From Armatimonadia bacterium (GTDB taxonomy: Bacteria; Armatimonadota; Zipacnadia; Zipacnadales; JABUFB01): a stretch of DNA of 34,538 nucleotides. Positions 142 through 14,266 of this stretch are shown piece by piece. Each line of letters begins with the position of its first letter. Position 1 is the first letter of the stretch. A model generated the notes under the pieces. It worked only from the letters and a program-made list of their open reading frames with translations, did no database searches and had not been told where the DNA came from. The position numbers and the translations under genes were made by a program. The DNA lies in contig JBDKVB010000105.1 of the NCBI GenBank assembly GCA_039679385.1, positions 1 through 34,538 of the forward strand. The letters are read 5' to 3'.

Positions 142-245
142 GAGAAATCACCTTTGCGATGTCGGATTCGTGTTGGCACCAACCTAATTCCCCACAGGCA
201 GCCCCAGACCTTGCCGCCCATACCAGGGGGCAGGGACGTCGCCGC

Positions 246-3155
246 ATGTCCCCGGGGGATCCGAAGCGCACCGGCTTCCGGCTGAGCACGCTTCTCTCCC
301 GCTCCTGGCTGGCCTTGGTGCTGCTGTGTGCCCTATGTTGCGCCGATGAGCCGGCTAGTCTCGCGCCGGTTGCCGTCTGCGGTCGTGCCCTGGCGCCTCC
401 GACCATCGACGGCAACCTCAACGAGCCGGCCTGGCGTAACGCCGCGATGTTGGCCCCCTTCGTCCTCGTCGCCACCCATGAGCTACCGACGCAGGCCACG
501 ACCTGCCGGGTCATGCGCGATGCCACGCGCATCTACCTCGGCTTCGACTGCTCCGAGGCGAAGATGCCGTCGCTATCCATGGTTACCACCGAGCGTGACG
601 ATGCCCACGCCTGGATGGACGACTGCGTGCATGTCTTCCTCGCGCCTCTCGACCCGCGCCACACCTACTATCACTTTGTGGTGACCGCCAACAACACCGT
701 CTTCGATGAGAGGGCGCTGGAGGACGGCCAGGAGCGCCAGCCCTGGTGGAACGCCGACGTGGTCACAGCCACCCGTCGCGGCACCGACCACTGGACCTGC
801 GAGATGTCCATCCTCCTGGAAGACCTCTATGAGGGACAGCCGCCGCAGGATAGCTGGTGGTTCAGCGCCTCGCGGGCCGAGCATCCCCACGCTGAGTGGT
901 CCAGTTGGTCCCTGCTGAATGCCGGCTTCCACGAGTTTACGAACTTCGGCCACTTGCTGTGGACCGACGAACCCACGGTCACCAGCCTTGAGTTGCCCGC
1001 GCCCTTTGTCGGACGCAACGAGTACCGCATCAGCCTCGGCCAGGCCTCACGCAGCTACATCACCGAGCTCCAGGTCATCCGTGACTTCCAGGTGTTCCCA
1101 AAGCTCCCGCTGCGTATGACCGGCGGGGCAAGCGCCTCCTACGGCTATGATCTCCAGGAAGAGGGCGACGCCGCTGTTCGTCTGATTGTACGCCGCGAAG
1201 ACAGCCACGATCTGCTCTACGCCAGCCCGCCGGTGTCCTTCTCCGTGCCCCGTGTGCGTGGCCTGGTCGAGGAGATGGGTGCTCGGCTGGCCTCGGCAGC
1301 CTTCACGGTGTCCGCCGCTCCCGATAGCCCCTTGCGGCGCCAGGTGACTGGCGAAGTCAGCCGCCTGCGAGACGAAACTCGTGCCCTCGGAGTGGCCGCC
1401 GACAAGCTCGCCCGCAGCGCCAGGGTTCCTCGCGATCGCTGGGAGGAGCTCCATCGCCGTGCGGCGACCCTTGCCCCGCAGGCACGAATCGCGGAGCTGA
1501 GAGGTCTGCTCGTATCCAGGGGTGCCGGCAGCATGCCCAGCTTCGGCCTGGGTGTCGCCAACTCCCTGCAGAAGCTATCACCGCAGGACGTGGGGTATTC
1601 CCTGTCTGACGAGCTACAACTGCACTCCTGTCGACAGGAGCGTGAGTCCGGTCAGGTCGTCGTCGTCTCGGTCGGGAAGCCGGTCAAGAACGCCAGGGTG
1701 CAGTGGACAGGCCTGCGCGGACCGGGCGACGCCCGCATCGACCACGACGCCATTGAGATCCACCGGGTCGGCTGGGTCAACACCCGGCAGCCGCTCTACC
1801 AGGTAGAGAGGGTCGGACGCTGGCCGGATCCGCTGCTTCCGCCGGAGCCCTTCGACGTGCCCGCCCAGGAGATACAACCCCTGTGGGTAACCGTCACCGT
1901 GCCCGCCGATGCAGTGCCGGGGCAGTACACCGGAACTCTCACCGTTACCGCCGAGGGCGACGCCCCGCAGACCGTGAAGCTCTCCCTTGAGGTCTGGGAC
2001 ATCCAGCTTCCGCTCCATGGCAAGTTCCGCACCGGCTTCGGCACCGTCATCCGTGGCGACGCCAGCCAATGGTATGGCCTGCGGGGCGACCCGCCGGAGG
2101 ACTTCCGCCACAAGTTCTACAGCGTCCTGCTGCGCAACCGCATCAATCCGGCCAGCCTGTACATCCAGGAGGTCTGGCCGCTGTGGAGCGACTTCGACTG
2201 GTGCTATGAGCGGGGTCTCAATGCGCTGAGTCTGGGGAGCCTGCAAGTCGCCGACACGCGACGCCTGATGGACATGGCCGAGATCGCAGAGCGCCTCAAG
2301 CAGCGGAACCTGCTCGACATGGCCTACGTGTACGGCTATGGCGACCTGTCCGAGGAAGAGGTGGGCCTGGCGCGCGAGGGCTTCAGCAAGGTGCGACGCG
2401 CTCTCCCTGGTCTGCGTCGAGCTAGCCCGGTGGCGCCGAACAAGGCCCTGTGGAACTACGTGAACCTCTGGGGAACGCTGACCTCGGAGTTCGACCCGGT
2501 CAGCGCTGCTCGTCGTCAGCGCCTGGGCGAGGACATCTGGTGGTACGTCTGCTGCGGCCCACGGCACCCCTACGCCAACTTCTTCATCGACTACCCGGCC
2601 ACCGACGCGCGGACCCTCTTCTGGGCCGCCTACAAGTACGGCATCAGCGGCTTCTTCTACTACGAGGTCGCCATGTGGGCCTCGAACATGCTGACGCAGG
2701 ACATCGGTGACCCGAGCATCGTCATCCATGAAGACCCGGCCGCCCTGGAAGCGATCAAGGACGGCCACCGATGGCCTGACGTGCCCTGGAACTCCTATAC
2801 CTTCAGCCGCTACAACGGGGACGGTCTGCTGATCTACCCGGGGCCGAACGAGACGCCGCTGCCGAGTCTGCGGCTGGAGGTGATCCGCGATGGCATCGAG
2901 GATTACGAGTTGTTGGCTCTGCTCGAGGGCCTGGCACGCAAGCTGAAGACTCTCGACCCCCAGGGCGCCCACGCCTACCTGGTCGATGAGGCCATGCGGC
3001 TTGCAGCAGTCAGCCCCCAGGTGGTGCGCGACCTCACCCACTTCACCTCCGATCCCAACGTGATCGCCGGCGAGCGCGAACGTGTCGCGAACCAGGTGCT
3101 CCGCTTGCAGCGCGTGGTGTCACAGCTCGAGGAAGAGCGCGCTCAACAGCCCTGA
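246..3155 (+). CDS. Secreted CBM9-like / DUF4091 (GH123-like) protein
   Basis: A 969-residue protein, probably exported and acting on glycans. The ATG at 246 is preferred over the in-frame ATG at 159 because an AGGGA site lies about 10 bases upstream and a hydrophobic signal segment (WLALVLLCALCCA, residues 21-33) then sits near the N-terminus. Residues about 48-245 look like a family-9-type carbohydrate-binding domain (PPTIDGNLNEPAW opening). A helical linker follows. From about residue 560 comes the pattern of DUF4091/GH123-like proteins: a beta-sandwich with QPLWVTVTVPADAVPGQYTG, a TIM-barrel-like region, and the signature near the C-terminus (RLEVIRDGIEDYELLALLEG). GH123 members remove N-acetylgalactosamine from glycans, but DUF4091 as a group is mostly uncharacterised, so no substrate is claimed. 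It is monocistronic, with a hairpin after the stop. Confidence 0.85.
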   Translation: MSPGDPKRTGFRLSTLLSRSWLALVLLCALCCADEPASLAPVAVCGRALAPPTIDGNLNEPAWRNAAMLAPFVLVATHELPTQATTCRVMRDATRIYLGFDCSEAKMPSLSMVTTERDDAHAWMDDCVHVFLAPLDPRHTYYHFVVTANNTVFDERALEDGQERQPWWNADVVTATRRGTDHWTCEMSILLEDLYEGQPPQDSWWFSASRAEHPHAEWSSWSLLNAGFHEFTNFGHLLWTDEPTVTSLELPAPFVGRNEYRISLGQASRSYITELQVIRDFQVFPKLPLRMTGGASASYGYDLQEEGDAAVRLIVRREDSHDLLYASPPVSFSVPRVRGLVEEMGARLASAAFTVSAAPDSPLRRQVTGEVSRLRDETRALGVAADKLARSARVPRDRWEELHRRAATLAPQARIAELRGLLVSRGAGSMPSFGLGVANSLQKLSPQDVGYSLSDELQLHSCRQERESGQVVVVSVGKPVKNARVQWTGLRGPGDARIDHDAIEIHRVGWVNTRQPLYQVERVGRWPDPLLPPEPFDVPAQEIQPLWVTVTVPADAVPGQYTGTLTVTAEGDAPQTVKLSLEVWDIQLPLHGKFRTGFGTVIRGDASQWYGLRGDPPEDFRHKFYSVLLRNRINPASLYIQEVWPLWSDFDWCYERGLNALSLGSLQVADTRRLMDMAEIAERLKQRNLLDMAYVYGYGDLSEEEVGLAREGFSKVRRALPGLRRASPVAPNKALWNYVNLWGTLTSEFDPVSAARRQRLGEDIWWYVCCGPRHPYANFFIDYPATDARTLFWAAYKYGISGFFYYEVAMWASNMLTQDIGDPSIVIHEDPAALEAIKDGHRWPDVPWNSYTFSRYNGDGLLIYPGPNETPLPSLRLEVIRDGIEDYELLALLEGLARKLKTLDPQGAHAYLVDEAMRLAAVSPQVVRDLTHFTSDPNVIAGERERVANQVLRLQRVVSQLEEERAQQP

Positions 3156-3191
3156 CGCACGCCCCTCCCAAGTGACCGCACATACACAACA

Positions 3192-3219
3192 GGCGGCACC
3201 CCACTGGGGGAGTGCCGCC
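3192..3219. terminator. Hairpin between convergent genes (bidirectional terminator)
   Basis: GGCGGCAC at 3192-3199 pairs perfectly with GTGCCGCC at 3212-3219, and the stem can extend inward through CCC/GGG. It lies between the stop of the DUF4091 gene (+) and the stop of rpsT (-). There is no strong T-run on either side, so termination is inferred from position and stem strength. The same eight-base stem recurs in the hairpin at 27585-27620. Confidence 0.5.
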
Positions 3220-3259
3220 GAAAGATACTGCCGAGACGACGGGGATCCAGACCTGAGGA

Positions 3260-3535
3260 CTAGCCCTTGGTGGCCTGAAGTGCCGCTGCGCGCTTCATAA
3301 GACGTGACTTCCGCCGTGCGGCCGCACCCTTATGGAGGATGTTGCGCTTGGCAGCCTTGTCGATAGCCTTCTGCGCCGCGGCCATGGCAGCCGCCAGATC
3401 CTCGGCGCTACCTGCCTTGGCAACGTCCAGCGCCGCACGGGAGGCCAGCTTGATGGCCTTCTTCTTGGCGCGGTTCTGATCCCGCCTCTTGAGCGACTGT
3501 CGCAGAGCCTTCCTGGATGACGGAAGCTGTGGCAT
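3260..3535 (-). CDS. rpsT: 30S ribosomal protein S20 (bS20)
   Basis: A 91-residue, highly basic protein of the usual S20 length. It begins MPQLPSSRKALRQSLKRRDQ and continues with the Lys/Ala-rich helices typical of bS20: NRAKKKAIK near the N-terminus, and AAKRNILHKGAAARRKSRLM with a lysine/alanine tail at the C-terminus. S20 binds 16S rRNA early in assembly of the small subunit. The ATG at 3535 is preceded by GGGAGAGG at good spacing, which marks it as the true start within a longer open frame. The gene stands alone, as is common for rpsT, and has its own promoter about 120 bases upstream. The long leader leaves room for translational control, as reported for rpsT in E. coli, but no specific structure is claimed. 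Confidence 0.95.
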   Translation of the reverse strand: MPQLPSSRKALRQSLKRRDQNRAKKKAIKLASRAALDVAKAGSAEDLAAAMAAAQKAIDKAAKRNILHKGAAARRKSRLMKRAAALQATKG

Positions 3536-3652
3536 GAGACCTCTCCCATCCGACGCAATTCGAACCAAGCCCCCTAGGGACAATAAGCCGCCGGCTCTGT
3601 TGCCTCCGGCGCCCCTGGTTGCTCGGTAGCACGTGGCCTGTAAGTGGGTCGT

Positions 3653-3681
3653 AATATAACACAAACCTCGCCCCAACGCAA
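3653..3681 (-). promoter_or_regulatory. Sigma-70-type promoter of rpsT
   Basis: On the minus strand, TTGCGT (3676-3681) and TATATT (3653-3658) are separated by exactly 17 bp. The predicted transcript would start near 3646 and give a leader of roughly 110 bases before the rpsT ATG at 3535. This is among the most AT-rich patches of the intergenic region. Confidence 0.7.
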
Positions 3682-3890
3682 GGTTTCGCGACCTTCGGGC
3701 AGGACAAGGGGCTCCCGGCGGGGAATAGACCGTACCAGCCGCAGGTGACCTCCGCCGCCGGTCTGCGGCGCGAGTCCATCTCTGACGCCTGAACCAGAGG
3801 GCGTCGGCAGGCGTCCCCACAGACACAAGAGGCTTCGCCGGGCTGTGTCTCTCTTGCCGCACGGCCCTTATAGTGACGAGGGGTGAGACG
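3682..3890. other. Intergenic leader region upstream of the NHL gene
   Basis: No gene is visible here. The last 70 bases contain a possible stem (AGACACA at 3821-3827 with TGTGTCT at 3844-3850) just ahead of the ribosome-binding site of the gene at 3891. A TATAGT hexamer at 3869-3874 lacks a partner -35 element. The rest shows nothing I can support. Confidence 0.3.
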
Positions 3891-5708
3891 ATGTCCCTAC
3901 GAAAGCTGCTGCCCATCTTCTGTCTTCTGACCGTGGTGAGTGTGGCCGTCGCCCAGGAAGCGCCCACCTCAGCAGGACCAAAGGGCTACCGGTTCCTCCG
4001 GACCATCGGTGCTGCCGGAGCTGGAGCCCTCGACCGCGTGCTTGATCTCACCGCAGACAAGTACGGCAACCTCTATGTCGTCCAGAACCCCGGAAGCTCC
4101 ACCTTCCGCATCGATATCTTCCAGCGCAAGGGCACCTTCTACGGCAACTTCATGGAGAGCGCCGAGGAAACCGAGGCCGAGACCGCTGCCGCCGCCAAGG
4201 ACGCGAAGGCCAAGCCTGGCGAGATCCGTCGCCCGAGCTGCATCGCCACCGACAAGGACGACCGCTTGCTGATCGGCACTGAAGCCGACGGCGTCCTCGT
4301 CTTCGATGCGGAGGGCAGCTTCAGCAGCAAGCTCGGCGAGGGCCAGGGACTGACCAAGATCCGTGCCTTGCGCACCGATCCTGCCGGCAACGTCTACGTG
4401 TCTGCGCCCTCACGGACCTCCTCACTCTTCCGCTATGACTCCTCCGGGAAGCTCACCCTTGAGTACCCCCGGGAAGCCGTTCGCCAGGCTCCGGAGTCGA
4501 TCGCGGTGGACGAGAAGGGCTTCGTCTACCTCGTCGATTCAGAGGCCGGAATCGTGCGCATCACCCCGGAGGGCAAGCGCGACCCGGCCTACAAATCGCC
4601 CATACCCGGCTATGTGACCCGCGATGACGTGGCGGGCATCCGCCTGGCCTGCGACGCCAAGGGCAATGTCGTGGCTGCCTATCCTTCGAGCCGCCAGGGA
4701 GGCTCCTTCGTCGCCGTCCTGACCCCGCAGGGCACGGTGGCACAGAAGGCCAAGCAGATCCCCGGAACCGTCGAAGCCGCCCTGGGGACTCCCGACGGTT
4801 TCGCCTACATCGCCGCTGAAGGCCTCTTCTCTCAGAACCCGGCCATGGCCCGGCAGGCGCGCATCACCCGGGTCATGCTCTACAAATCCGATGGCACCGA
4901 AGTCCTCCGCTACGGCGCCGACGCCATGCCCGGACGTTTCGGCAAGATCGCTTGCCTGGCTCCCATATCCTCAGCTCTTGGCGGCGACCTGATCGTCCTC
5001 GACCGCACCGGCGTCATGCATCAGATGACCAAAGACGGCCAGGCGAGAGGCATTTTCGCCCATGCCTGGCCCTGTATCGTCGTTGTCGGCCCCGACCGTG
5101 GCGCCTTCCAGATCACCGGCGCGCAGTTCAACCTGCTGAGCTTCCGCGGCAAGCGCACCAAGTGGCAGACCCTCCGAGCCGCGGAGACCGGTGGCAGCGC
5201 CGTCCGTGTCACCGACGCCGTGGCCGACTTCGCGACCCAGACCCTCTACTGCGTCGACCAGGCCTCCCAGCGTATCGTCAAGCTGGATTTCGACTTCAAC
5301 TACAAGGGCGAGATCCGCACCTTCGGCACCAACGACAAGTTCCGCTATCCCTCCGGCGTGGCACTCTCGCCGGACGGCAACACCCTCTATGTCACCGAGT
5401 TCGGCGGCACGCAGCGTCTCCTCGCGCTTGACGCCAAGGCCGGCTCCCTCAAGTCTGAGCTGGCCAAGGGGCTGCAGGCACCGATGGTGCCCCGGGTAGG
5501 TCCGGATGGCGGCATCTTCGTCGTGGAGATGCGCGGCAAGCGCGTCCTGAAGTACAGCCCCACCGGCGAGAAGCTCGCTGAGTTCGCGGAGGCCGGGAAG
5601 ACCAAGTTCGAGTCACCTGCCGCCGTCGCAGTAGGCCCTGACGGAACGGTCTACATCGGCGACAACGCCACTTCCCTGGTCTACGTCTTCGTCCCCGGTC
5701 AGGGGTAG
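3891..5708 (+). CDS. Secreted NHL/six-bladed beta-propeller protein
   Basis: A 605-residue exported protein. The ATG at 3891 follows GAGGGGTGAG, and a signal peptide with core LLPIFCLLTVVSVAVA ends around residue 23. The body is built of repeated strands of NHL/SMP-30 type: KYGNLYVVQNPG near residue 62, IATDKDDRLLIGTEADG near 118, GVALSPDGNTLYVTEFGG near 490, and AVAVGPDGTVYIGD near the end. Such propellers usually bind ligands or proteins, and some are lactonases or lyases; nothing here shows catalysis. An Ala/Glu/Lys-rich patch (about residues 87-107, ESAEETEAETAAAAKDAK) interrupts the propeller and is probably a surface loop or helix. It is a single gene with a strong terminator after it, so its partner cannot be read from context. 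Confidence 0.85.
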   Translation: MSLRKLLPIFCLLTVVSVAVAQEAPTSAGPKGYRFLRTIGAAGAGALDRVLDLTADKYGNLYVVQNPGSSTFRIDIFQRKGTFYGNFMESAEETEAETAAAAKDAKAKPGEIRRPSCIATDKDDRLLIGTEADGVLVFDAEGSFSSKLGEGQGLTKIRALRTDPAGNVYVSAPSRTSSLFRYDSSGKLTLEYPREAVRQAPESIAVDEKGFVYLVDSEAGIVRITPEGKRDPAYKSPIPGYVTRDDVAGIRLACDAKGNVVAAYPSSRQGGSFVAVLTPQGTVAQKAKQIPGTVEAALGTPDGFAYIAAEGLFSQNPAMARQARITRVMLYKSDGTEVLRYGADAMPGRFGKIACLAPISSALGGDLIVLDRTGVMHQMTKDGQARGIFAHAWPCIVVVGPDRGAFQITGAQFNLLSFRGKRTKWQTLRAAETGGSAVRVTDAVADFATQTLYCVDQASQRIVKLDFDFNYKGEIRTFGTNDKFRYPSGVALSPDGNTLYVTEFGGTQRLLALDAKAGSLKSELAKGLQAPMVPRVGPDGGIFVVEMRGKRVLKYSPTGEKLAEFAEAGKTKFESPAAVAVGPDGTVYIGDNATSLVYVFVPGQG

Positions 5709-6443: not shown

Positions 6444-7016
6444 TCACTGAGAATGGCCCGGAGAGGTCGACCAACCACAACGCTCCCACTCGCGCAGAAA
6501 GCACCCGAGCGTTGGGTCGTCATACACGACGAAATCGACCAGCTCCAGCGAGCTCTCCTCGTGCTGCTCGAGGTAGGCCCGGGCAGTTGCCAGCAGAATC
6601 TGCGCGCACCGCTCCTTGGGGAAGCCGAAGATCCCCGAGCTGATCGCTGGGATCGATATGCTGCTCAGCGCGAGTTCCTCGGCTCTCTGCAGGCTCGACT
6701 TTACTGCGCTCGCCAACTTCCCATCGCCCTGCGGATCGGAGCCACGGGGCCCTACGGCGTGAATAACGTAGCGGGCGGCGAGCTTGCCGCCGCCGGTAAC
6801 AACCGCATCGCCCTCAGCGCAGAACCCGATCTCCTCGGACTCGCGCTGAATCTCGTAGCCTCCCCGCCGAACGATGGCGGCAGCTACTCCTCCTCCGTGG
6901 AGCAGGCGCGAGTTGGCTGCGTTCACAATAGCGTCCGTCTCGGCGAGTGTGATGTCACCTTGTAGAAGCCGAATCTGACGAGTCCCCACCTGATGGGCAC
7001 AGACGGCCTTGTTCAT
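6444..7016 (-). CDS. Macro-domain ADP-ribose-binding / deacylase protein
   Basis: A single-domain, 190-residue macro protein, probably cytoplasmic. The family binds ADP-ribose and its derivatives and often removes acyl or ADP-ribosyl groups. The hallmark motifs are all visible: GDIT with Asp21, the DAIVNAANS strand-loop with Asn32 and Asn35, the LLHGGGVAAAIVRRGG loop (residues 38-53), VIHAVGP, and the phosphate-binding SIPAISSGIFGFP (121-133). The HGGGVAAAI form resembles the archaeal AF1521-like branch more than the MacroD form. The ATG at 7016 follows a GGGGGGA site. The C-terminal tail is basic/aromatic and poorly conserved. The partner gene downstream is a membrane protein. No ADP-ribosyltransferase is visible nearby, so its substrate is unknown. 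Confidence 0.9.
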   Translation of the reverse strand: MNKAVCAHQVGTRQIRLLQGDITLAETDAIVNAANSRLLHGGGVAAAIVRRGGYEIQRESEEIGFCAEGDAVVTGGGKLAARYVIHAVGPRGSDPQGDGKLASAVKSSLQRAEELALSSISIPAISSGIFGFPKERCAQILLATARAYLEQHEESSLELVDFVVYDDPTLGCFLREWERCGWSTSPGHSQ

Positions 7017-7340
7017 GGCAGTTCCCCCCTGTGGTACTTCATACAGGGTATCGGTTCGCCATGCTCCGGCCCTTCCCTTCATGCAACTCCCACTTCGTCC
7101 AGTAGCCTGCACACAAGGCGGAACTCCAGCCTCGTCATGTCCTCCCTCGACGCTCGCCCAGTCCTGAAGCCGAGTATACCCGCCGACACCTCTGCTCCAC
7201 ACCACCTTCCGCTGAGAGGGTGGCGCTCTCAAAGACCATCGCGCCCTGTGGGGCAGGGATTACCAGCCCCTCCGGGAATAGAACCTCCAGCCGCGCCACT
7301 GACTCACCTGCTGGTCGTCAATCAAGGGAGGACAGGACGC
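7017..7340. other. Divergent intergenic region with a possible leader mini-ORF
   Basis: This 324-bp gap separates the macro-domain gene (-) from the DUF4838 gene (+). On the minus strand, a TATACT hexamer (7174-7179) has no convincing -35. It is followed by a 19-codon reading frame (7138 down to 7079, MTRLEFRLVCRLLDEVGVA) with a perfect GGAGG site ahead of its ATG. This could be a leader peptide of the macro-domain transcript or chance. On the plus strand only the AGGGAGGA ribosome-binding site at 7325-7332 is clear. Confidence 0.3.
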
Positions 7341-9842
7341 ATGGTCAGGCCAATCCTCTGTGCAACGGTGCTTATCCTCTCGGTTAGTGCCTTCGCGACC
7401 CCCTTGACCCTGGCTCGCGACGGCAAACCGACTGCGACAATCGTCATCCCCGACAAAGCAGACGCCAAGATCCGAGCCGCTGCCCTGGACCTGCAGCACT
7501 ACGTCAAGGCCCTCTGTGACGTTGAGCTTCCTCTCGCCACCGACGGCAAGCGCGTGCAAGGAACCGGCATCTACGTCGGCGTCTGCGAGCCGACTTCCGA
7601 GGGCGACCTGCCCGACAAGACCCTCAACCCCGAGACCTACGCAATTCGGGTGCATGACGGCAACCTGTACCTCACCGGCCGCCAGCCGAGCCCGGTGTCC
7701 TTCGCCGTCTCCTCCTTCCTCGAGGACAACCTCGGTGTCCGCTGGTTCGCCCCCGGTTCGCTCTGGGAGTATGTGCCGCAGGGGAAGCCCGGCGAGCTGA
7801 GGGTCGAGGTCAAGGACCTGGTGAGTGTCCCCGGCACTTCGCCCCGCATCTGGTCCGGCCATGGCTGGACCGAGGAGTGGCGGGCCTGGGATCAGCGCAA
7901 CAAGGCGGTCCTCAGCGAGATCGTCCCGCGGCGGCAGTTCCAGAACAACCTGTACCGTGTGTTCCCGCCCGAGAAGTACGCGACGACCCATCCCGAGTAC
8001 TATCCCCTCATCAACGGCAAGCGCTGGATCCCGGGACCCGATGACCGCTACTGGCGGCCCTGCGAGAGCAATCCCGACGTGTTGCGCCTGACCGTCGAGT
8101 ACGCCTGCAAGTGGTTCGACGACAATCCCACCGTCGACAGCTTCTCACTGGGCATGGACGATATCTCGCACCTGTGCAGTTGCCCGAACTGCCGGGCCCT
8201 GGACCCGCGTCCGGACTCCTACGAAAAGAAGGAGTTCTCCGACCGCCACTACAAGTTCGTCAACGCTGTTGCCCGCGAGGTCGCCAAGACGCATCCCGAC
8301 CGCTACATCGGTACCCTTATCTATGCCATCGCCCGCAAGCCGCCGGAGACGGTTGACCGCCTCGAAGACAACGTCTTCGGCTTCATCACCCAGACTTGCG
8401 GTATGTGGTATCTCGATGGCCGCCAGGCCGAGGATGAGGCCGTCACCCGCGAATGGGCCCGGCGCTGCAAGCACCTGTCCCGCTACGACTACATCGGCTT
8501 TGGCACCATGACCCCGCGCGTGTTCCCTCATATGCTCGACCGGGCGATCAAATTCGACAAGTCCCTGGGCTTCGAGGGGATGTACACCGAGGTCTACGAC
8601 TTCCTCCCGAACACCGCGCCGATGATCTGGGCGATGGCCAAGCTGGAATGGGACCACACCCTGAACCTTGACGACCTGCTCCAGGACTTCTATACCAAGA
8701 TGTATGGCACCGCTGCGCCAATCATGAAGCAGTACTTCGACCTCCTTGAACGCTCCTACTACACCGACCGACCGGGGCACGGAGCCTGGGAGCACCGCAA
8801 GCTCTCCGTCCAGGCGGTAGCGCTCTCCGTCGAGGACCTCGACGAGGCCTTCCGTCTCCTCCAGCAGGCCACCAACGCTTCCGGTGATCCCGACGTCCAG
8901 GAGCGAATCTTCCAAAGCCGCCTGGGCCTGCAGTACGGGTCCTACGTCATCCGCGCAGCCGCGCTCTCCAAGCAGGCTCTGGCGGCTGCCGTCACCGACG
9001 AGAAGTCGGCGGAGTCGGCCCTGCAGTTTGCCGAGAGGATCTCCCAGCTCAGTGTCGAGCGCGAGAAGTTCTGGGCCGACATGCTCAAGATGGACGGCCT
9101 CGCGGGCGACAGTATCCGCGGACTGACCGGTCAGGGCTACCTCGTCGGCGGCCAGGCTCCCAGCCTGGAATCCGGCGGGACCGTCGCTGCCCTCAAGGTG
9201 CTTGCGTGGTACTCCGAGAACGCACCCGAGCGCGCCGCCCAGATTGCCCAGCGCATCTCCAATCTCGGCGGACCCGTCTCCGATGCGGTGAAGTCCTGGG
9301 TCTGGGCCCAGCAGACGAAACCGCAGAACCTCTCGCCGAACGGCGACTTCGAGGACCTCGGTACCAATACCCAGCCGGCTGAACAGGATTGGGCTACCGA
9401 GGGTGCGCCCAAGGGCTGGTCGACCTGGAGCTCCCTTGGTGATGCCCGCTTTGAGATCCTGGGCGGCAAGGGGCACCAGGGGTCCGTTGGGGCCTCCATA
9501 GCCGGAAGCAAAGCCTCTGCCTGCTACCTGCAGACAGTCCCCGTCAAGGCGGACGAACGGTATCTGTGCGTCGCCTGGATGAAGGGCGACCCCGCCGGCG
9601 CCGGACAGGGCAGCGGCAAGCTCTCGGTCCGCTTCCGCGACGCCAAGGGCTCCTGGCATGCCCGTCACGACCTGGAGCCCAGCGTCGACATGGTGCAAGG
9701 GCAAGCAGACTGGCAGCCCGTGATGATGACGGTCACGATCCCTGAGGGTGCCGCGGGCGCGGTCATCATGCTCGGTACGAGCGACCAGGCGGAAGGTTCG
9801 CGTATCCTCTTCGATGACGGGGCCTTCTACAAGCTGCCCTAG
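7341..9842 (+). CDS. Secreted DUF4838 protein with C-terminal carbohydrate-binding-like domain
   Basis: An 833-residue exported protein. The ATG at 7341 has an excellent AGGGAGGA site, and the N-terminus (MVRPILCATVLILSVSAFA) is a signal peptide. Residues about 25-150 match the N-terminal alpha/beta domain that precedes the barrel in GH20- and GH67-like enzymes (ATIVIPDKADAKIRAAALDL). The central DUF4838 region carries the SLGMDDISHLCSCPNCRALD motif near residues 266-286; the CxCxxC cluster there is typical of the family. A helical region follows. The last 160 residues (SPNGDFEDLG onward, ending ILFDDGAFYKLP) form a CBM4/9-like beta-sandwich. DUF4838 proteins are thought to be glycoside-hydrolase-like, but their reactions are not established. 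The methyltransferase gene begins 70 bases later. Confidence 0.85.
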   Translation: MVRPILCATVLILSVSAFATPLTLARDGKPTATIVIPDKADAKIRAAALDLQHYVKALCDVELPLATDGKRVQGTGIYVGVCEPTSEGDLPDKTLNPETYAIRVHDGNLYLTGRQPSPVSFAVSSFLEDNLGVRWFAPGSLWEYVPQGKPGELRVEVKDLVSVPGTSPRIWSGHGWTEEWRAWDQRNKAVLSEIVPRRQFQNNLYRVFPPEKYATTHPEYYPLINGKRWIPGPDDRYWRPCESNPDVLRLTVEYACKWFDDNPTVDSFSLGMDDISHLCSCPNCRALDPRPDSYEKKEFSDRHYKFVNAVAREVAKTHPDRYIGTLIYAIARKPPETVDRLEDNVFGFITQTCGMWYLDGRQAEDEAVTREWARRCKHLSRYDYIGFGTMTPRVFPHMLDRAIKFDKSLGFEGMYTEVYDFLPNTAPMIWAMAKLEWDHTLNLDDLLQDFYTKMYGTAAPIMKQYFDLLERSYYTDRPGHGAWEHRKLSVQAVALSVEDLDEAFRLLQQATNASGDPDVQERIFQSRLGLQYGSYVIRAAALSKQALAAAVTDEKSAESALQFAERISQLSVEREKFWADMLKMDGLAGDSIRGLTGQGYLVGGQAPSLESGGTVAALKVLAWYSENAPERAAQIAQRISNLGGPVSDAVKSWVWAQQTKPQNLSPNGDFEDLGTNTQPAEQDWATEGAPKGWSTWSSLGDARFEILGGKGHQGSVGASIAGSKASACYLQTVPVKADERYLCVAWMKGDPAGAGQGSGKLSVRFRDAKGSWHARHDLEPSVDMVQGQADWQPVMMTVTIPEGAAGAVIMLGTSDQAEGSRILFDDGAFYKLP

Positions 9843-10799: not shown

Positions 10800-11795
10800 A
10801 TGACCTCCGCACCCTCTGCGTGGTTACTCTTCACTCTCTTCCAGGGCGCTCTCTGCATCTGGGGGCCGGGCGCGGTCCAACCGAAGGCCCTTAGCCCCGA
10901 GCGAGAGTCCATGTCGCTGAGCCGCCTTGCCGTGACTCGCGACGGAACGACCTGCTACTTCAGCGTCTCGCACAACCTGTGGCAAGCCTCGACGACCGGG
11001 GCCGCACCTAAGCAACTCACCACGCGCGGGCATGCGACGGTCGTCGACGAGGAGTTTGCAGAGCCCCACGATTGCGACTGCCCGCTGCTGTCTCCGGACG
11101 GCCGCTACCTGGCCTACCGCTACATGCCCGACAAGGGAGCCGCGCAGGTATGGCTCATGAACCTGCAGACCGGCAAGGACGCTCGGCTGGCCGACGACGC
11201 CGACCTTGGTCCCGGCTGCTGGACTCCTGACGGGTCGGCGATTGTCTTCGAGAAGGGCCAGAGCCTGTGGCGCGTTGAAGTCGCCACTGGTGCCCTCAGC
11301 CAGGTGACGCAGTGTCCGGCAGGTGCCCGAGTGGGCGACGGTCAACCAACCTTCAGCCCCGACGGCACGCTGGCCTTCACGCGTGACTTCGACCTGTGGC
11401 TCCTTCCTCCCAACTCGACAGCCGCGCGCCGTCTGACGAACACGAGCTACCTGCAGTGGCCGACCTGGAGCCCGGACGGCAAGCGCCTTGCTGCCTATGC
11501 CTCCCGCAGGGCCGGAGAAGGGGAAGACGCCGACCAGTGGGATGAGATCCACATGGTGGACCTCACGGGGACAACGAAGTGCCTGGTCTCGACCAGCAAC
11601 GCACCCGAGGGCACCCTTTCTGCCGCCCAGATCATCGGGTGGCTTAGCAACACCGAGCTGTTGATCGACCGCAATGTCGGGGAAGCGCCGCCGAAGGTCT
11701 ACGCCATCGACGTGAACACTGGCCTTTCGCGTCTCCTGCTGAAGCTTCGGGATGGCGACGAGATGCCAACGCTGTGGGTCCCGGGCCGTCAGTGA
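10800..11795 (+). CDS. Exported TolB/PD40-type beta-propeller protein
   Basis: A 331-residue protein starting at ATG 10800, preceded by GCGGGAGA. A signal-like segment (AWLLFTLFQGALCIWGPG) covers residues 7-24. The body has four clear PD40 repeats of the TolB propeller: LLSPDGRYLAYRYM, CWTPDGSAIVFEKG, TFSPDGTLAFTRD and TWSPDGKRLAAYASRR. These are spaced about 45-65 residues apart, and the last turns (GWLSNTELLIDRN, VYAIDVNTGLSRLL) complete the propeller. Such proteins bind partners or peptides rather than catalyse. It is the first gene of a tight cluster, with 37 bases to the sialidase-like gene, so it may share a role or substrate with it; that is inference. It lacks the N-terminal TolB domain, so it is not TolB itself. 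Confidence 0.85.
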   Translation: MTSAPSAWLLFTLFQGALCIWGPGAVQPKALSPERESMSLSRLAVTRDGTTCYFSVSHNLWQASTTGAAPKQLTTRGHATVVDEEFAEPHDCDCPLLSPDGRYLAYRYMPDKGAAQVWLMNLQTGKDARLADDADLGPGCWTPDGSAIVFEKGQSLWRVEVATGALSQVTQCPAGARVGDGQPTFSPDGTLAFTRDFDLWLLPPNSTAARRLTNTSYLQWPTWSPDGKRLAAYASRRAGEGEDADQWDEIHMVDLTGTTKCLVSTSNAPEGTLSAAQIIGWLSNTELLIDRNVGEAPPKVYAIDVNTGLSRLLLKLRDGDEMPTLWVPGRQ

Positions 11796-11832
11796 CGGTC
11801 TCAAATGCCCTGCTACGTCAGGAGGCTCCCTG

Positions 11833-13200
11833 ATGTCGCTGCGCAAAACCGAAGACGTGGTCATCTACCAGGACGATAGCTGGTACTCCTCCTTCCCGTC
11901 GCTGGTCACGCAGGATGACGGCACAGTCCTGTGTGCCTTTCGCCGCGCACCGGAGCGCCGAAAGTGGGGAGCAAGTGGCGTCACCCATGCCGACCCCAAC
12001 AGCGCCTGTGTCCTCGTTCGCTCGGAGGATGGCGGGGAGACCTGGAGCAAGCAACCGCTCACCGTCTGGGCCAATCCGCTCGCGGGCAACCAGGACCCGT
12101 GCATGTTCCAGCTTGCCGACGGCTCCCTGCTGTGTTCCACCTTCTCCTGGATGCTGCTGCATGGCGAGGCTCCCACGGCGCCGGGCATCATCAACGTCGC
12201 GCATCTGGGCTGGAAGATGGTGAACCTCGGGGCGAGCTGCCTGCGCTCGACAGACGGCGGACGAACCTGGACTGCTCCCGATCCACTGAGCGTCGCCGAG
12301 GACCCGGCCGTCATGAGCCATCTCATCGAGAAGCATCGCCCTGTGGTCGGGAAGCTGGCCAAAGAGTACGAGGACGAGTGCGATGTAAGCCTGGAGGAGC
12401 TCACCGCCGCCGGTGAGGTTGGCTTGCAGCGAGCGGCCGCGAGCTTCCGCGAGGGCAAGCACTTCGACTTCGGCACCTACGCCTCCTGGTGGGTCCGCTG
12501 GGCCATCACCTATGCCCTGACGCACGGTGGCCAGCCCTTGCGTGTGGCCGTTCCCATCGAGCCGCCACCCGGGCGGCCTCGCGAGGTGTATCCGGGCATT
12601 CCGAACCGTGGTGCCTGCCGGGGCAAGATGGCGCAGTTGCCTGACGGCCGCGTCCTGTGGCCGCTCTATGGCTTCCGCAAGGGGCCAATGCCCAGTGAGT
12701 CCTGCGTCTACGCCTCCGATGACGGCGGCGAGACCTGGCGCTACCTGTCACTGATCGCCGAGGATGAGGCAATCGGCTTCAACGAGACTTCGCTTCATCT
12801 GTGTCCGAGTGGCCGCCTGGTTGCCTTCCTGCGCACCACCGGCCTCGAGGGAGTCCTGGCCACCGCAAGCTCCTCTGACGGCGGCCAGACCTGGTCGCCC
12901 TGGCGTCAGAGCTCGATCTGGGGACACCCCTTCACCCCCTGTGCGCTCAAGGATGGCCGGGTGGCTCTCATCTACGGGCATCGGCGCGAGCCCTTTGGCA
13001 TCCGCATGAAGCTCCTCGACCCGGAGTGCTCAGACCTGGAGACCGCCGAGGAGTTGGTCCTGCGCACCGACGGCGGTAACGGCGACATCGGCTACCCGTG
13101 GGTCACTCCGCTGTCCGAGAGCAGGCTGCTGTGCGCGTACTACACGAACCATGACGACGGCACCCGCTACATCGCCGGGAGCATCGTCGAAGTTTCCTGA
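11833..13200 (+). CDS. Sialidase-like (BNR) propeller carrying an inserted sigma-70 region 2-like domain
   Basis: A 455-residue protein starting at ATG 11833 behind a strong AGGAGG site. It has no signal peptide. The sialidase superfamily is shown by four Asp-boxes: SEDGGETW (64-71), STDGGRTW (139-146), SDDGGETW (295-302) and SSDGGQTW (347-354). Family strands such as YPGIPNRGACRGKMAQLPDG and SLHLCPSGRLVAFLRTTG are also present. Residues about 153-243 do not belong to a propeller. They read as sigma-70 region 2 with its following linker (see the separate entry). Removing them leaves about 364 residues, a normal single six-bladed propeller. The protein sits between a PD40 propeller and a KDPG-type aldolase (gaps of 37 and 40 bases). 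A glycosidase reaction is not certain, because many such cytoplasmic or exported BNR proteins have no tested activity. Confidence 0.88.
   Translation: MSLRKTEDVVIYQDDSWYSSFPSLVTQDDGTVLCAFRRAPERRKWGASGVTHADPNSACVLVRSEDGGETWSKQPLTVWANPLAGNQDPCMFQLADGSLLCSTFSWMLLHGEAPTAPGIINVAHLGWKMVNLGASCLRSTDGGRTWTAPDPLSVAEDPAVMSHLIEKHRPVVGKLAKEYEDECDVSLEELTAAGEVGLQRAAASFREGKHFDFGTYASWWVRWAITYALTHGGQPLRVAVPIEPPPGRPREVYPGIPNRGACRGKMAQLPDGRVLWPLYGFRKGPMPSESCVYASDDGGETWRYLSLIAEDEAIGFNETSLHLCPSGRLVAFLRTTGLEGVLATASSSDGGQTWSPWRQSSIWGHPFTPCALKDGRVALIYGHRREPFGIRMKLLDPECSDLETAEELVLRTDGGNGDIGYPWVTPLSESRLLCAYYTNHDDGTRYIAGSIVEVS
12289..12561 (+). other. Sigma-70 region 2-like segment inside the sialidase-like gene
   Basis: Codons 153-243 of the gene at 11833. 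The order of elements follows primary-type sigma factors. First comes an opening helix HLIEKHRPVVGKLAKEY (compare LVEKNLRLVVxIAKKY), then SLEELTAAGEVGLQRAAASF (compare LEDLIQEGNxGLMRAVxKF). Next is DFGTYASWWVRWAIT (compare KFSTYATWWIRQAIT), then QPLRVAVPIE (compare RTIRIPVHMIE). The aromatic residues that open the promoter -10 element in E. coli sigma-70 (Phe427, Tyr430, Trp433, Trp434) have counterparts Phe213, Tyr216, Trp219 and Trp220. The counterpart of Gln437 is Trp223; that of Thr440 is kept as Thr226. No region 3 or 4 follows. The frame is open across both joins and base composition does not change. Confidence 0.8.
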
Positions 13201-13240
13201 TCCAGACGCATCTGTACCGACTCAGTAGGGAGGAAAGCTC

Positions 13241-14266
13241 ATGGCCCAGTTCACACGCCTCGAAACCCTCAATGCCATGCTCGACCGAGGCCTTGTGCCC
13301 GTGTTCTACAACAAGGACATCGACACCGCGGTGAAGATCACCGAAGCCTGCGCCGCCGCAGGTTGCCGATGCGTCGAGTTCACCAACCGCGGCGACTTCG
13401 CCTACGAGGTCTTCGCCGAGCTGGTGAAGTACTGCAAGGACAACCTGCCCCAGGTCATCATGGGCGTCGGCTCCGTCGTCGACCCCGGCACCGCTGCCCT
13501 GTACATGGCCAACGGCGCCAACTTCATCGTCGGCCCGATCCTCAATCCCGAGGTCGCCCGCGTCTGCAACCGCCGCAAGATCCCCTACTCGCCCGGTTGT
13601 GGTAGCGCCAGCGAGATCTCCGAGGCCGAGGAGCTCGGGGTCGAGGTCGTCAAGGTCTTCCCTGGTGCCGAGGTCGGAGGTCCGGCCTTCGTCAAGGCCA
13701 TGCTCGGACCTTGCCCCTGGACCCGCATCATGCCCACCGGTGGCGTCGATGCCACGGAGCAGAGCGTGACCGCATGGATCAAGGCCGGCGCCGCCGCCCT
13801 GGGAATCGGCAGCAACCTCATCACCAAGGACCTCGTCGCAGCCGGCGACTTCGCGGGCATCACCGCGAAGGCCCAGGAAGTCCTCTGGTGGGTGCAGAAG
13901 GCCCGTGGCGCCTCGCTGTTCCTCGGAATCGAGCACCCCGGCCTGTACCCGGAGAAGCCCGCCGGTGGTCAGGAGATGGCGGACTGGTATGCCGGCGCCT
14001 TCGGCCTCGACGTGAAGGTCGGCAACTCCTCCATCTTCGTCTCCGGCAAGGGCCCCGGTCGCCTTGAGATCATGAAGGAGCCGACCCAGCCCAAGACTCA
14101 CGTCGCGGTGCGCGTCAGCAATTACGAGGAGGCCAAGAAGGCCCTGGAAGCCAAGGGCTTCGCCTTCGAGGACGAGACGGACAAGAAGGGCGTCAAGGCA
14201 GGCTACCTGACCACGCCGGATCCGGCAGGCCATCGCGTACACCTGCTGTACAACCCGAACCTCTAG
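13241..14266 (+). CDS. KDPG/KHG-type aldolase fused to a C-terminal VOC (glyoxalase-like) domain
   Basis: A 341-residue, two-domain cytoplasmic protein; ATG 13241 follows AGGGAGGAAAG. Residues 1-220 are an Eda-family TIM barrel. VEFTNRG holds the conserved Glu46, VVKVFPGAEVGGP the Schiff-base Lys138, and IMPTGGVD the phosphate or carboxylate loop (164-170). Family members cleave 2-keto-3-deoxy sugar acids into pyruvate and an aldehyde. Residues 225-341 resemble a vicinal-oxygen-chelate domain. His232, Glu276, His287 and His334 fall at the four places where VOC enzymes bind metal, with His rather than the usual Glu at the last. The fusion is unusual: Eda proteins are normally about 210 residues. 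It is the last gene of the PD40-sialidase cluster, which suggests work on a sugar acid released from a glycan. Confidence 0.88.
   Translation: MAQFTRLETLNAMLDRGLVPVFYNKDIDTAVKITEACAAAGCRCVEFTNRGDFAYEVFAELVKYCKDNLPQVIMGVGSVVDPGTAALYMANGANFIVGPILNPEVARVCNRRKIPYSPGCGSASEISEAEELGVEVVKVFPGAEVGGPAFVKAMLGPCPWTRIMPTGGVDATEQSVTAWIKAGAAALGIGSNLITKDLVAAGDFAGITAKAQEVLWWVQKARGASLFLGIEHPGLYPEKPAGGQEMADWYAGAFGLDVKVGNSSIFVSGKGPGRLEIMKEPTQPKTHVAVRVSNYEEAKKALEAKGFAFEDETDKKGVKAGYLTTPDPAGHRVHLLYNPNL

Follow-up and report, generated by a model that had tools for sequence, protein, structure and literature searches.

Few enzymes of central carbon metabolism have been studied as thoroughly as KDPG aldolase (Eda), which is also widely used as a design scaffold. 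A preliminary description of the window (the whole 34,538-nucleotide stretch of DNA analyzed here) took Eda enzymes to be single-domain proteins. This calls for a caveat, since NF041633 describes proteins in which Eda is fused to a sugar kinase. The close unfused relatives of the NF005499 branch that were fetched from genome contigs end at 219-236 aa, whereas the window protein continues with a 116-residue VOC domain. Eda and VOC are both known families; the novelty lies in how the two are joined, in the recurrence of this architecture on two lines of Eda, and in a His/Glu/His/His site in the VOC domain. A search of open-licence papers for KDPG/KHG aldolase together with VOC or glyoxalase found none that describes an Eda-VOC fusion, and Eda-VOC proteins that carry an automatic Eda annotation must exist.

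The joining of Eda and VOC in frame within one 341-aa protein (Table 1) is confirmed. The preliminary description had proposed a KDPG-type aldolase fused to VOC, and this holds: the NF005499 and PF00903 matches both exceed their cut-offs and 18 further full-length fusions were found. For the aldolase part, Pfam matched PF01081 at residues 17-209 (E 3.1e-36, 125.1 bits against a cut-off of 27.8), NCBIfam matched NF005499 (Eda) at residues 1-222 (327.7 bits, cut-off 275), and an aldolase barrel is predicted in the model of the window protein. Structure alignment identified 8di1 as the closest solved structure for this domain (47% identity, TMt 0.97). An alignment of 19 full-length Eda-VOC proteins, the window protein included, was used to score invariance, and E46, R50, K138, and T166-G168 (TGG) are invariant in 19/19. 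The roles of Glu46 and Lys138 are presumably those of E45 and K133 of E. coli Eda. The domain thus has both the family profile and the Schiff-base Lys, catalytic Glu, and TGG loop of a class I KDPG/KHG aldolase. Additionally, the window genome encodes elsewhere a second, short Eda that is unfused, indicating that the fusion is dispensable for the aldolase reaction.

Table 1. Features of the Eda-VOC locus and of a related fusion; positions are those of the window unless another locus is named.
Feature	Position	Strand	Basis or remark
BNR/Asp-box sialidase-like gene, 40 bp upstream of the fusion	11752..13200	+	Pfam, sequence; start may be 11833
Likely ribosome-binding site GGGAGGAAAG	13228..13237	+	3 bases 5' of ATG, read from sequence
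Eda-VOC fusion gene	13241..14266	+	ORF and translation, 341 aa plus stop
Class I KDPG/KHG aldolase domain, residues 1-222	13241..13906	+	PF01081, NF005499, structure 8di1
Glu46, aldolase catalytic Glu	13376..13378	+	Invariant in 19 fusions
Lys138, Schiff-base lysine	13652..13654	+	Invariant in 19 fusions
Short linker, residues 223-225, within the RG..LFLGIEH joint	13907..13915	+	Predicted structure
VOC domain, residues 226-341	13916..14263	+	PF00903, model, PDB matches
His232, predicted metal ligand 1, beta1	13934..13936	+	Invariant; match start on 1f9z residue 5
Glu276, predicted metal ligand 2, beta4	14066..14068	+	Invariant; strand 274-278
His287, predicted metal ligand 3, start of beta5	14099..14101	+	Invariant; aligned with GloA H74
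His334, predicted metal ligand 4, beta8	14240..14242	+	Invariant; aligned with GloA E122
Methyltransferase-VOC gene	L126:571-1857 = L133:6757-8043	+	Four VOC ligands present

The C-terminal extension, read as VOC from its letters in the preliminary description, gave a Pfam match to PF00903 (Glyoxalase) at residues 244-334, scoring 25.7 bits where the cut-off is 20.6, and the VOC fold on which that description depended was found by prediction. A full-length AlphaFold2 model built with 32 sequences (mean pLDDT 90.9, pTM 0.84) places, in order, the barrel, a helix at 204-221, and a strand at 227-235 that opens the first of two beta-alpha-beta-beta-beta units (227-278 and 288-337), which is the VOC fold. 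When the VOC part was modeled by itself (mean pLDDT 79.9), it matched many VOC structures in the PDB, the best of them 3ghj (VIA-align Z 11.2, rmsd 2.5, 103 aligned); Ni-glyoxalase I reached Z 9.0. The paired units that define the VOC superfamily are therefore present in the model, and fold matches reach a Z of 11.2.

Nine of the 116 VOC residues are invariant in the 19 fusions (H232, G234, F254, F266, E276, H287, A298, G306, and H334), and His232, Glu276, His287, and His334 are the only polar residues among them; Lys279 is kept in 18/19. The naive probability of all four ligands falling among the nine invariants is about 2e-5, a value to be taken as a guide only given that the sequences are related. 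In the model, the four predicted ligands sit on beta1, on beta4, at the start of beta5, and on beta8, the classical VOC positions, and the VIA-align match starts with H232 on residue 5 of 1f9z and on residue 7 of FosA (1lqk, 5wew), both of which are known ligand positions. Further, H287 aligns with GloA H74 and H334 with GloA E122, in a GloA sequence whose ligand positions were checked. In a plain sequence alignment, GloA H5 and E56 did not fall on H232 and E276, and these two ligands were assigned from the structural alignment and the order of strands. The fourth position, which is Glu in glyoxalase I, is His (His334) in 19/19 fusions. The VOC-like metal positions named in the preliminary description are thus supported by the predicted strands, by VIA-align, and by invariance in the 19 fusions, and all of its residue numbers (E46, K138, TGGVD, H232, E276, H287, H334) are correct. 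By position and invariance the predicted site corresponds to the VOC metal ligands at beta1, beta4, beta5, and beta8, and, with the fold, this argues well for a VOC domain that holds one divalent metal through His232, Glu276, His287, and His334; the site may lie between two chains, as in glyoxalase I. Extradiol-type VOC dioxygenases hold Fe(II) in a triad of His (beta1), His (beta5), and Glu (beta8), and the window protein departs from that triad, its beta8 residue being His and its Glu lying on beta4 instead.

A survey of Eda-VOC fusions and their neighbors, as the preliminary description had envisaged, yielded the 18 further full-length proteins, from the phylum of the window, from Chloroflexota, and from one gut Clostridia plasmid. 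Eleven other genomes, ten from the window's phylum and one from Chloroflexota, encode full-length copies with 63-78% identity, and the Chloroflexota genome has in addition a second copy truncated at the end of a contig. More distant fusions were found in L098 and L099 (window's phylum), L129-L132 (Chloroflexota), and L068 (the gut Clostridia plasmid). The fusions fall into two classes: 14 are window-type, with the long NF005499 aldolase, and 5 are gut-type, with a short aldolase that is about 30% identical to the window-type aldolase. In the aldolase tree, the two fusion lines lie in separate, fully supported parts with unfused enzymes near each. Nonetheless, a profile built from window-type VOCs alone finds three gut-type VOCs at 39-54 bits, scores that exceed those of any stand-alone VOC in those loci. 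On this reading of the tree, either VOC became attached to Eda on two occasions or the aldolase was swapped under a retained VOC. Among 201 genomes of the window's phylum, the VOC subfamily was detected in 14, with a profile built partly from those very sequences, and it is fused to Eda in 13 of the 14. A "Rosetta stone" pair, in which a stand-alone VOC would stand beside an unfused aldolase, was rejected: in 25 of the 27 genomes with an unfused window-type aldolase that were searched, no VOC of the subfamily was found, indicating that unfused window-type aldolases work there without a VOC of this kind. Viral contigs yielded a single relative, of the aldolase part only. It should also be noted that one Anaerolineae contig (L005) carries two fusion copies on opposite strands, at 8001-9020 (+) and 12809-13216 (-), the second ending at the contig edge, and that these copies adjoin a branched-chain-amino-acid-type ABC permease gene.

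In the window itself, Pfam searches of the neighboring genes revealed no sugar-acid gene next to the fusion, which converges on a methyltransferase gene downstream, and the adjacent genes are uninformative on substrate. The BNR gene upstream contains, at 12289-12549 and in frame between BNR repeats, a sigma-70 region 2 stretch (PF04542, E 1.6e-8, residues 191-256) that is missing from the nearest BNR orthologs in five genomes (54-57% identity); the insert itself has matches with 31-40% identity in other proteins of the sampled genomes, most of which are similar in size to RpoD (about 690 aa). At 159-3155 and 6993-9842 (+), the window encodes large proteins of glycoside-hydrolase type (GH123-like; DUF4838), fitting a polysaccharide degrader.

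Other fusion loci say more about the substrate. In L134, L135, L136, L137, L099, and L068, the fusion lies next to a sugar kinase of the PfkB type, and in the four loci scored with NCBIfam (L135, L136, L137, and L068) the best match of the kinase is the kinase half of NF041633, at 465-578 bits. The L135 locus also contains a D-galactarate/altronate dehydratase, and L098 an iron alcohol dehydrogenase and a malate/lactate-dehydrogenase-like gene. KDG-kinase-like orthologs (60-66% identity) are present in 11/11 window-type genomes of the phylum sample, that of the window included, and an unfused window-type aldolase (G024) likewise adjoins a KDG-kinase-like gene. Because such a gene is the usual neighbor of the fusion in Chloroflexota and in the gut-type loci, KDPG made from KDG is the most likely substrate of the aldolase; the fusion of the VOC domain to two Eda lineages and the KDG-kinase neighbors support its connection with the KDG/KDPG pathway. 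In three loci of the window's phylum (L089, L091, and L094), a Gfo/Idh/MocA oxidoreductase adjoins the fusion. A trifunctional oxidoreductase-Eda-VOC protein in L089 was considered and rejected, as its frame crosses an ambiguous stretch and the oxidoreductase is a separate gene in L091 and L094. In L091, an apparent operon at 276-5692 (+) reads gnd-zwf-pgl-Gfo/Idh/MocA-(Eda-VOC), an oxidative pentose-phosphate set in a genome without a canonical edd. No fusion genome encodes an edd above the curated cut-off, dehydratase relatives scoring below it only, and the edd dehydratase as canonical Entner-Doudoroff partner, and with it the classical pathway, is thus unsupported despite the gnd, zwf, and pgl of L091.

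A third partner of the VOC domain was found in a Chloroflexota genome (G216), where the fusion partner of a VOC of the same subfamily is a methyltetrahydrofolate:corrinoid/iron-sulfur-protein methyltransferase (NF005719 above cut-off; Table 1). The joint there, KARRAALFLGIEHVGLY (KARxxxLFLGIEH), is nearly equal to the Eda-VOC joint. This shows that the VOC domain is able to move to another barrel enzyme; it is therefore not strictly tied to the aldolase, and a strict link with the product of the aldolase is weakened. The methyltransferase-VOC cluster also comprises a GH88-like gene, a Gfo/Idh/MocA oxidoreductase, an SDR, and an old-yellow-enzyme relative, and, as a guess, it could possibly serve the demethylation of methylated uronates.

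The explanation that we favor, tentatively, is that the fusion is a bifunctional enzyme of 2-keto-3-deoxy sugar-acid breakdown, in which a KDPG aldolase is combined with a metal-dependent VOC enolization or isomerization of a pathway compound. First, in the barrel, Lys138 would form the Schiff base and Glu46 would transfer protons, cleaving KDPG to pyruvate and glyceraldehyde 3-phosphate, as expected from the family and its intact residues. Second, the divalent metal predicted on the four VOC ligands might chelate two neighboring oxygens, either at the 2-oxo-acid end of KDG/KDPG or on the alpha-hydroxy-aldehyde product. An enediolate stabilized by the metal could then allow the compound to be isomerized, epimerized, or ring-opened. 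Several observations weigh against this reading: the window gene has no sugar-acid gene as a neighbor, the second Eda of the genome makes the fusion unnecessary for the aldolase reaction, a generic accessory domain would account for the methyltransferase fusion equally well, and unfused window-type aldolases manage without a VOC of the subfamily in 25 of the 27 genomes searched. The more specific proposal of a new metal-dependent VOC isomerase, epimerase, or ring-opener of sugar acids, which feeds or drains its aldolase through the unusual His/Glu/His/His site, is doubtful as it stands. If true, it would mean that a VOC acting on 2-keto-3-deoxy sugar acids was recruited separately by two aldolase lineages; we know of no earlier VOC enzyme for such compounds. 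The presence of the fusion in two distant lineages, hosted by uncultivated environmental bacteria and gut bacteria, suggests a step or a control in uronate/aldonate breakdown that has yet to be described.

The main rival to metal-dependent enolization or isomerization is a non-catalytic role as sensor or in assembly, in which the VOC domain would be a metal-binding accessory for assembly, stability, or metal/metabolite-sensing regulation of the attached barrel enzyme. This is possible but rather unlikely. The methyltransferase barrel of G216, which carries a VOC of the same subfamily behind a nearly equal joint, is what such an accessory would lead one to expect, and the non-catalytic binders of bleomycin, tiancimycin, and zorbamycin are among the closest folds. 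A full set of four ligands is, however, typical of catalytic VOC enzymes more than of binding proteins, and the set is complete and invariant here. Moreover, the clustering of the methyltransferase fusion with a GH88 uronyl-hydrolase-like gene makes a shared substrate from the uronate pathway possible as well.

The preliminary description had suggested that the VOC domain may process or detoxify the aldehyde product, or bind the substrate. It is improbable that the domain is instead a glyoxalase clearing methylglyoxal, or aldehydes related to it, that derive from the triose phosphate released by the aldolase. That product is a source of methylglyoxal, and the structural matches include Ni glyoxalase I (1f9z) and GloA2 (4mts), at a Z of about 9. 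However, many folds score equal to or above glyoxalase I. The GloA model NF050074 gives only 13.3 bits against a cut-off of 165, and the position of the catalytic Glu122 is His in 19/19 fusions; glyoxalase-type detoxification is weakened by both. Further, the substrate of glyoxalase I is a thiol adduct, which such a role would require.

Still less probable is a VOC domain that takes the place of KduI, or of a different sugar-acid isomerase, ahead of the aldolase and so unites two uronate steps in one protein. A strong KduI match is found in 0/13 fusion genomes of the phylum sample and in 48/188 others, with a Fisher p of 0.04 that is untrustworthy because the pattern tracks relatedness, whole families having or lacking KduI. 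Strong KduI is also missing from the five Chloroflexota fusion genomes searched, and GH88 and SDR genes stand in the methyltransferase-VOC cluster, but G216, the genome of that cluster, has two KduI genes. In addition, organisms can reach KDG without KduI via mannonate dehydratase or via altronate dehydratase, the latter of which is encoded at one fusion locus. Finally, that two neighboring genes were joined by an assembly or frame error, a concern raised by the draft state of the window genome (184 contigs), is ruled out for practical purposes, since the same in-frame joint recurs in independent contigs of many genomes, in copies with 63-78% identity and in more distant ones.

The bifunctional reading can be set against the known systems that the protein resembles. 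Its residues 1-222 align end to end with the KDPG aldolase of Tannerella forsythia (8di1). The natural fusion of NF041633 is alike in that Eda is joined to another domain of the KDG pathway; there, however, the partner is a KDG-type sugar kinase, whereas the partner in the window is VOC, and the window protein lacks the C-terminal PfkB kinase and reaches 75 of 700 bits on that model, through the aldolase part only. Among VOC proteins, the integron cassette protein HFX_CASS4 (3ghj, Z 11.2) is the best fold match to the VOC domain alone, followed here by a glyoxalase-family protein of B. anthracis (2qqz, Z 10.7); unlike the VOC of the window, both stand alone, are "putative" or uncharacterized by title, and share about 21% identity with it. 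The metal-dependent enzymes GloA (1f9z), FosA, and methylmalonyl-CoA epimerase are alike in fold and in the metal positions on beta1, beta4, beta5, and beta8, but identity to GloA and other metal VOC enzymes is about 20%, and the VOC of the window is a single module fused to an aldolase.
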